51,636 nucleotides of DNA, taken from positions 1-51,636 of the forward strand of contig JAFWIY010000018.1 of assembly GCA_017514675.1 (NCBI GenBank). The letters run 5' to 3'. The notes beneath the pieces were generated by a model that worked only from the letters and a program-made list of their open reading frames with translations, searched no databases and was not told the DNA's origin. Both the position numbers and the translations under genes were made by a program. Source of the DNA: Candidatus Saccharimonadota bacterium (GTDB lineage Bacteria; Patescibacteriota; Saccharimonadia; Saccharimonadales; Saccharimonadaceae). Positions 26,627 through 27,827 of this stretch are shown piece after piece (position 1 is the stretch's first letter; each line of letters starts with the position of its first letter).

Positions 26627-26713
26627 GCCCGCTTGGCGGAATTGGTAGACGCGCTAGCTTCAGGTGCTAGTGGTAGTAATACTGTGAGAGTTCAAATCTC
26701 TCAGCGGGCACCA
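26627..26713 (+). tRNA. tRNA-Leu (CAG)
   Basis: 87 nt including encoded CCA. Acceptor gcccgct / agcgggc, D-arm ggcggaattggtagacgc, anticodon stem ctagc / gctag around loop ttcaggt (anticodon CAG), long variable arm (class II), T-loop gttcaaatc. A TGGTATAAT box ends 8 nt before the first base. Confidence 0.95.
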
Positions 26714-26730
26714 GATTACGACAATTTTCA

Positions 26731-27546
26731 TTACTTCGCATAGTTATACAGACAAGGAACACCTTCTTCTACTAATTCTTTAACCGAACGAGTCTCAATG
26801 CCATTTGGCAAATCTAGAATACTAGTAAACCCAACTAAAACTCCGCTATCAGGATCTGAAAATATTTTACCAGTAGCAATTTTTTGTACAGCATCTAATT
26901 TCCTCTCGATCAACCTATCAATGATTTTCGACTTATTATCTATAGTATTACCAACCTCATCCTTCTGTGGCGCCAACATCTGATCTAAATCATCACATAG
27001 ATACATCAATGCTCGCGAATTCGTGCCATAGGCACTTGCACACATTAATACTAAACTTCTTATATAATTACTAAATGTACGTTCCCTGGTGGTTTCTGTC
27101 GATAAATGTTTAATAAAATTATGCCCAGAATTACGAAAATGTTCCACTTCGTTATCAGAAAGAGGCGGGGTATCGGGCATAATATCGCGGCATGTTTTGG
27201 TAAGATGTCGAAAGAATTTTGATTCAGGAATTCTTTTGTTATCCCCCTTAAAACCATAGTGATAATTATATAATGTCTCCGCTTCACTAAAAAGCCTTAG
27301 TCTATCAAACCATTCTTTTTCATCTTCACTATCATATATCTCCCTCGGAGAACCTAGGCTCTTCAAAGTCAAAGCATCCAATCTATCCAATACCTCCATT
27401 GTAGACAAATAGACGGGCTGAGTATCCATTTCGGCTAGTTCTTTTTCATACTCACGCACGCGTAGTTCAACAGGACCCTCTTCATCGCGTATATGCGAAA
27501 AATCGCCATAATGACTAGCCGATCCTAAAAATTCATGATTTTTCAT
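26731..27546 (-). CDS. Hypothetical protein downstream of a structured leader RNA
   Basis: 271 residues, soluble, charged and helix-rich (e.g. ELRVREYEKELAEMDTQPVYLS, IDRLIERKLDAVQKIATGK), no TM or signal peptide. I recognise no family or catalytic motif. An aggaggt site precedes the ATG. About 45 nt upstream ends a hairpin terminator that belongs to a three-way-junction RNA (27592-27741), so the gene may be controlled by attenuation. Convergent with tRNA-Leu; the stop is 20 nt from it. Confidence 0.65.
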   Translation of the reverse strand: MKNHEFLGSASHYGDFSHIRDEEGPVELRVREYEKELAEMDTQPVYLSTMEVLDRLDALTLKSLGSPREIYDSEDEKEWFDRLRLFSEAETLYNYHYGFKGDNKRIPESKFFRHLTKTCRDIMPDTPPLSDNEVEHFRNSGHNFIKHLSTETTRERTFSNYIRSLVLMCASAYGTNSRALMYLCDDLDQMLAPQKDEVGNTIDNKSKIIDRLIERKLDAVQKIATGKIFSDPDSGVLVGFTSILDLPNGIETRSVKELVEEGVPCLYNYAK

Positions 27547-27591
27547 ATTACCTCCTTTAATTTTTACTTAGCCGCCATAGAAGATTCTCCT

Positions 27592-27622
27592 AAAAAAGTG
27601 GAACACTCGCTATGGAGTGTTC
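27592..27622 (-). terminator. Terminator / attenuator hairpin in the leader of the 271-aa gene
   Basis: Minus strand gaacactc-catagc-gagtgttc followed after 3 nt by six T. Its 5' arm shares 5 nt (27618-27622) with the closing stem P1 of the upstream RNA structure, so both cannot form fully. Confidence 0.7.
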
Positions 27623-27741
27623 AAAGTTCCAATTTCTGCAATCTAGCGGTTGAGCTGGACAGGAGCGAGTGCTCCACTAGTAGCTCAACTCATTATCTAT
27701 TCTCCCAGCAATAGACCAGATTACAAGTTGAAACTTTGAAC
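27592..27741 (-). ncRNA. Candidate structured leader RNA (riboswitch-like or small RNA)
   Basis: On the minus strand: P1 pairs 27742-27728 with 27632-27618 (15 bp, one G-U); P2 aatctgg / ctagatt (27722-27716 with 27646-27640); P3 hairpin tctatt / aataga (27715-27710, 27701-27696); P4 gttgagct / agctcaac (27689-27682, 27656-27649) capped by ggagc-actc-gctcc. P2, P3 and P4 meet in a three-way junction. A terminator overlaps P1. It does not match the consensus of the riboswitch classes I can recall, nor T-box. A stand-alone small RNA is the alternative. Confidence 0.6.
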
Positions 27742-27747
27742 ATTTCA

Positions 27748-27756
27748 ATTATAACA
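27748..27756 (-). promoter_or_regulatory. Promoter of the leader RNA, TGTTATAAT
   Basis: Extended -10 TGT TATAAT; predicted start near 27741, exactly at the first base of P1. Confidence 0.6.
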
Positions 27757-27827
27757 CATAGAACACTGATATACGACAATATATTAATTATTGTTCGACT
27801 CTGCTACTTTTATATAATAGATATCAG

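Follow-up and report, generated by a model that had tools for sequence, protein, structure and literature searches.

Does the segment directly ahead of an unrecognised 271-aa ORF, in the 51,636-nucleotide stretch of Saccharibacteria DNA analysed here (the window), encode a regulatory RNA, and if so, of what kind? An earlier note on this DNA had proposed a riboswitch-like leader, in which a promoter directly precedes a 15-bp closing stem and a three-way junction, and an intrinsic terminator overlaps that stem by 5 nt. We found that the RNA occupies positions 27745..27592 of the minus strand (154 nt) and begins 2 bases past the -10 box. The promoter and the coordinates given earlier proved accurate, as did the placing of the ORF (27546-26731), which starts 45 nt past the RNA end and drew no match in Pfam, PHROG or PADLOC. 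The features of the locus are:

27756..27748, minus strand: extended -10 promoter box TGT-TATAAT (sequence inspection and family comparison)
27592..27745, minus strand: structured leader RNA, whole modelled element (covariance model R1, 135 bits, E 2.5e-29, the window sequence being among the 31 that built R1; covariation)
27728..27742, minus strand: 5' strand of P1, partner 27618-27632 (MFE; double changes)
27618..27632, minus strand: 3' strand of P1, its terminal GAACA common to stem T
27636..27726, minus strand: P1b (27715-27726 with 27636-27647), with the three-way junction inside it (MFE)
27697..27714, minus strand: P2 hairpin (27710-27714 with 27697-27701; fold and covariation)
27649..27689, minus strand: P3 arm (27682-27689 with 27649-27656; covariation)
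27671-27675 with 27662-27666, minus strand: P3b, apical hairpin of P3 (near-invariant in the family)
27664..27678, minus strand: 5' strand of Px, AGTGGAGCACTCGCT, located at the apex of P3 (in the window it forms 15 bp with 27597-27611)
27597..27611, minus strand: 3' strand of Px, the putative switching arm AGCGAGTGTTCCACT, of which 27601-27608 double as the 3' arm of T
27601..27622, minus strand: stem T, a terminator-like hairpin, alternative to Px and the P1 base (pattern scan; 4 pairs with double changes)
27592..27597, minus strand: run of six U past the hairpin, where the family consensus is UUGGUUUUAGGGG
26731..27546, minus strand: cargo ORF, 271 aa, unrecognised family, with a strong Shine-Dalgarno sequence AAAGGAGG
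26714..27767, no strand assigned: mini-island of 1.05 kb (promoter, RNA and ORF), adjoined by the 3' end of tRNA-Leu(CAG); the relative G001 lacks the insertion
26627..26710, plus strand: tRNA-Leu(CAG), the integration target

MFE folding of the window RNA yielded P1 (15 bp), P1b (12 bp), P2 (5 bp), P3 (8 bp) and an inner P3b (5 bp) around a three-way junction, in agreement with the closing stem and junction proposed earlier. The fold is more stable than dinucleotide shuffles of the sequence, with z = -5.2 for the whole RNA and -7.7 for the core, and none of 200 shuffles equalled it. BLASTN turned up relatives of the RNA in numerous genomes of the genus, and a pattern combining the conserved P3 apex with the arm detected 32 loci in named assemblies, 31 of them labelled Saccharibacteria and mostly derived from the ruminant gut. 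One contig labelled 'uncultured Bacilli' (CANQWY010000066.1, L063) holds the RNA together with a cargo protein resembling those of Saccharibacteria loci, and is probably misbinned. The covariance model R1, built from an alignment of 31 distinct sequences with the promoter and Px left out, detected 51 copies, spread over 37 of the 174 genus genomes examined, with 1-3 copies apiece and three in the window genome. Under strict filters, R1 had no match in the sampled genomes outside the genus, comprising 247 from the order (131 other genera) and 380 from the phylum (312 other genera), some 440 genera in all. As all its matches lie within one genus, wide conservation is ruled out for the order and phylum genomes sampled. 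Viral contigs, INPHARED and PLSDB likewise held no match to the RNA.

Searches against Rfam returned no gathering-level match for the window. The best permissive matches were to SAM-III (15.6 bits, cut-off 45) and to OrzO-P (26.8, cut-off 60, located elsewhere in a relative's locus); a described Rfam family is thus ruled out at both gathering and permissive thresholds, and the earlier failure to match a known riboswitch class is borne out. Identity with 6S RNA, a housekeeping RNA that the earlier note had singled out as an outcome that would overturn its proposal, is also ruled out: the Rfam 6S search was blank, and the RNA occurs in a patchy manner at 1-3 copies per genome, each before a different gene, unlike the single conserved and free-standing copy per genome of 6S RNA. 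Literature searches brought up no published description of an RNA of this family. It is therefore apparently undescribed, and seen so far only in gut Saccharibacteria.

To assess the fold we examined covariation in 48 distinct aligned sequences. In these, 97.2% of cells are paired, changes on both sides are seen in 33 of the 39 pairs, and 353 double-change cells were observed, where shuffles gave 94 and slid controls 21-40; the counts include one chance match (L109, on the plus strand) and lean toward the model because the alignment was fitted to it. Double changes are distributed over all the main helices, namely 12 of the 13 modelled pairs of P1, 8 of 9 in P1b, and every pair of P2 (5/5) and P3 (7/7). 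Given that this covariation exceeds the controls and was visible even in the initial MAFFT alignment, which already showed 23 pairs with double changes, P1, P1b, P2 and P3 are real helices by the test of covariation. The covariance-model search of relatives, which the earlier note had named as the check on its proposal, thus found the structure conserved. The junction architecture includes conserved unpaired residues. P3b is near-invariant across the family, yet it is broken or shortened in two loci (L138 and L140), in which Px persists. An extra 3' helix between CUCC[AUA] of the T loop and a downstream [UAU]GGGG is a possibility, its signal being weak (252 versus 214 in shuffles, sd 6.7).

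The promoter and the downstream gene recur along with the RNA. A TATAAT-type hexamer lies 5' of nearly all copies, at exactly -8 from the model start in 35 of the 46 distinct copies, and a TG precedes it in 35 of the 46. A same-strand start codon follows 18-60 nt downstream in 44 of the 46; in the other two the contig ends first or the element has decayed. The arrangement first seen in the window, a structured leader just ahead of a gene, is hence repeated at the family loci.

The 3' region required a revision of the earlier picture. In the window, T takes the form GAACACTC-CATAGC-GAGTGTTC (27622-27601) followed by CAC and TTTTTT, which a pattern scan scores as terminator-like, and GAACA is common to T and P1; to this extent the proposed terminator, with its 5-nt overlap of the closing stem, is present. 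However, a six-T run follows T in just 3 of the 46 distinct copies, and a run of at least five in 7, so that the description "intrinsic terminator" does not fit the family. The usual tail is CACUUGGUUUUAGGGG, and conservation runs to a GGGG just beyond the arm and then ceases, short of the Shine-Dalgarno sequence. On these comparisons the 3' region is a conserved element that forms a standard intrinsic terminator in only a few copies.

What the conserved 3' arm, AGCGAGUGUUCCACU (27611..27597), offers is a choice of two partners. One, which yields T, is GAACACUC, and its first five bases form the end of P1. The other is the P3 apex, AGUGGAGCACUCGCU; this pairing, Px, spans 13-16 bp, opens P3b and forms a pseudoknot across P1. 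Px shows double changes at 8 pairs, and at three loci, all divergent members, the entire helix has been re-matched: GGAACGUCCGAUU/AAUCGGGCGUUCC in L128, GGAGCACCCAUUC/GAAUGGGUGUUCC in L124 and AAUAGGGCACCGCG/CGCGGUGUCCUAUU in L141. Among the 48 sequences T shows double changes at 4 pairs, part of which signal could come from P1, as the 3' strands of T and P1 overlap. In one copy (L036) a compensatory pair preserves T while one Px pair is lost, and in another (L134) Px changes in step and T is broken. Both pairings thus look to have been selected and, being mutually exclusive as well as covarying, they would make the RNA bistable. The mutually exclusive folds of the earlier note are upheld insofar as both states are conserved, but the chief competitor of T is the Px pseudoknot, beyond P1 alone. 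By helix energies, P1 with Px is favoured over a shortened P1 with T and P3b by a median of ~20 kcal/mol, a value that excludes any pseudoknot penalty.

The genomic setting places the RNA in mobile islands. In 19 of 50 contexts there is a member of a single large cluster of serine recombinases; its Resolvase and Recombinase domains and zinc ribbon identify it as a serine recombinase, and it matches the phrog_95 integrase with E 2.7e-69. On contigs that extend beyond a downstream recombinase gene, the 3' end of that gene overlaps or adjoins a tRNA gene of opposite orientation (Asn, Lys, Arg, Asp, Leu, Ser or Ile). Genes in the same orientation follow the RNA, up to the integrase several kb downstream, and nearby are genes for a terminase-small-like and a primase/helicase-like protein, together with a weak G2P-like match. 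A satellite-type gene set (integrase, primase-like, terminase-small-like) at a tRNA site is thereby present, and is incomplete in some elements. The window genome itself has a near-complete island (L105:10111-17207) with unrecognised cargo, a terminase-small-like gene, a G2P-like gene and a serine integrase overlapping tRNA-Asn. Decayed islands are seen in L047 / L083 and L136, at a tRNA-Asn site; next to tRNA-Asn the RNA and a truncated cargo ORF are left, and the middle of the element has been lost.

Two empty sites were recovered. In G001 (L146) only ~70-100 nt separate the same tRNA-Leu from a CmpB-like gene, where the window has the 1.05-kb insertion; in G009 ~4.35 kb lie between tRNA-Asp and the neighbour gene of adenylate kinase, a distance of ~0-100 nt in several relatives. 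Furthermore, G009 and G058 share flanks and differ in the cargo gene directly behind the RNA, with the break falling at the RNA 3' end. The RNA thus moves with the islands, as a standard module placed ahead of cargo that changes. A possible repeat flanks the window mini-island, GATTACGACAAT (26714-26725) and GATATACGACAAT (27768-27780); long direct repeats of tRNA ends were not found near the RNA. An inverted repeat, CGACAATA...TATTGTTCG (27772-27801), lies just 5' of the RNA promoter in the window and is possibly the displaced terminator of tRNA-Leu. That the RNA is the element end in all cases is ruled out by G009, in which ~1 kb and two small genes lie beyond it. A single-strand replication origin, raised by the G2P-like protein, was dropped, as the fold does not include the promoter and is nearly always followed by an ORF.

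The cargo is varied, comprising a type II restriction-modification pair, a large Hhe/PDC-S37-like helicase, an HSDR_N protein, by inspection a P-type ATPase, and many unrecognised genes. No common pathway unites the cargo genes of the RNA copies. As to the riboswitch-like leader proposed earlier, the conserved structured RNA thus stands, but the genes behind it are variable island cargo. At one locus (L125:4610-9912) the genes behind the RNA encode a protein with weak likeness to Shedu and a large Hhe/PDC-S37-like helicase, a candidate defence system. We also noted an N-terminal motif, for example ENPWQ[KR][IM]A[DE]E.PPF or GW[ED]NLSEVPF, common to several otherwise different cargo proteins (in L028, L034, L035, L042, L051, L055 and further ORFs that follow the RNA), which could be a targeting or partner-binding signal.

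With middling confidence, we propose that the RNA is a cis-acting two-state leader, an attenuator or antiterminator of island cargo operons. The RNA class and its structure are well supported; the regulatory output and the trigger we infer. In the small integrative islands found in gut Saccharibacteria, the RNA would serve as 5' leader to the cargo gene or operon that comes first, and its promoter has the -10 box at a fixed distance before the first stem. P1, P1b, P2 and P3, the helices with covariation, would fold on emergence, after which the 3' arm would either invade the P3 apex, giving Px with P1 intact, or take the P1 base, giving hairpin T. This choice, presumably made with RNA polymerase nearby, would set transcription into the cargo by attenuation or antitermination in cis. 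As Px is far more stable, we propose it as the ground, read-through state. Candidate triggers are a protein, a metabolite, an RNA in trans, or the speed of RNA polymerase while an island excises or a phage attacks. Transcriptional control fits better than masking of the Shine-Dalgarno sequence since conservation stops before the latter, and translational masking is less likely. Given its two mutually exclusive shapes, the RNA is probably a built-in switch for the island genes. Against this reading, the scarcity of the U-run makes T a poor intrinsic terminator in most members, and a pseudoknot of 13-16 bp requires threading.

The strongest rival is processive antitermination, as by the HK022 put or Tn916 canT RNAs, in which the leader would stay on RNA polymerase so that terminators along the island operon are read through, Px being merely part of the fold. 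The position of the RNA at the promoter, heading co-directional runs to the integrase, is where put (PMC9378689) and canT (PMC11658703) act, and the missing good terminator in most copies and the pseudoknot as the stable state would follow naturally. We nevertheless regard it as unlikely: the covariation of T would be left unexplained, some elements, such as that of the window, have one short cargo gene and little to read through, and the RNA is far larger than put, which has ~70 nt in two stem-loops and acts in cis on phage gene transcription (PMC9378689). RNAs of the put type suppress remote terminators in cis by way of the zinc-binding domain of RNAP beta'. A metabolite riboswitch, the direction in which the earlier note pointed, would have P1-P3 for its aptamer, with Px/T providing the expression platform; it draws on the same two-state 3' arm, on the junction with its conserved unpaired residues, and on the presence of a conserved structured domain with covariation. 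Metabolite riboswitch targets, however, share a pathway, and here restriction-modification, helicase, P-type ATPase and many unrecognised genes share none; the restriction of the RNA to mobile islands of one genus also renders this explanation improbable.

An RNA-based immunity or copy control like that of satellite phage P4 would have the processed leader act in trans, its apex pairing with the arm of another nascent transcript. The immunity leader of P4 has internal complementary segments, and the self-complementarity of apex and arm, along with the satellite-like islands bearing integrase, primase-like and terminase-small-like genes, would be accommodated. However, the same arm sequence coexists within a genome (copies C2 and C9 of G007, C10 and C12 of the window genome), so that the arms appear to form no separate immunity groups, and we judge it quite improbable. 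Least credible is a purely structural 5' cap that blocks decay from the mRNA 5' end without any switching: the first transcribed bases do lie within a few nt of P1, and the pseudoknot, being very stable, would close off the 3' end of the structure, but such a cap needs neither T, nor the conserved tail, nor exclusive pairing.

To our knowledge very few regulatory RNAs of Saccharibacteria have been described. The present RNA is a new structured class of the cis-regulatory leader kind, tied to tRNA-adjacent islands in one Saccharibacteria genus. The Px pseudoknot, the multi-copy family and the mobile-island setting are additions to the earlier observation, the two apparently selected states being the main one. 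Beyond the two-state leader itself, we would tentatively suggest, as a rather doubtful extension, that a standard promoter and RNA-switch module unrelated to known RNA classes allows islands of these ultra-small epibiotic bacteria to place varied cargo, defence genes among it, under the control of one common signal, for instance excision or an attacking phage. Given the strong covariation, the clear two-state design and the defined island setting, the proposal is directly testable in vitro. The RNA also offers a sequence by which mobile islands of Saccharibacteria, and their unrecognised, partly defence-related cargo, can be located.

Among known systems, transcriptional riboswitches and T-box-type attenuators resemble the present RNA in being 5' leaders that set a terminator-like hairpin against an alternative pairing; unlike them, it lacks a U-run in most copies, and it has no common target pathway and no Rfam match. 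The P4 immunity leader shares the complementary segments inside a leader and the satellite-like element, and differs in that identical arms coexist in one genome in the present family. Phage-inducible chromosomal islands and other integrative islands have a comparable layout, with a terminal integrase, primase-like and terminase-small-like genes and restriction-modification cargo; in the islands described here, the 3' end of a serine integrase overlaps the tRNA gene. As with HK022 putL and putR, a structured leader follows a promoter, directly so in putL (PMC9378689), but at ~154 nt and with a three-way junction and pseudoknot the present RNA has neither the size nor the fold of put. The likeness to canT drawn here is one of position; Tn916 is a conjugative element, and a two-state 3' arm goes unmentioned for canT in the abstract of that paper (PMC11658703).
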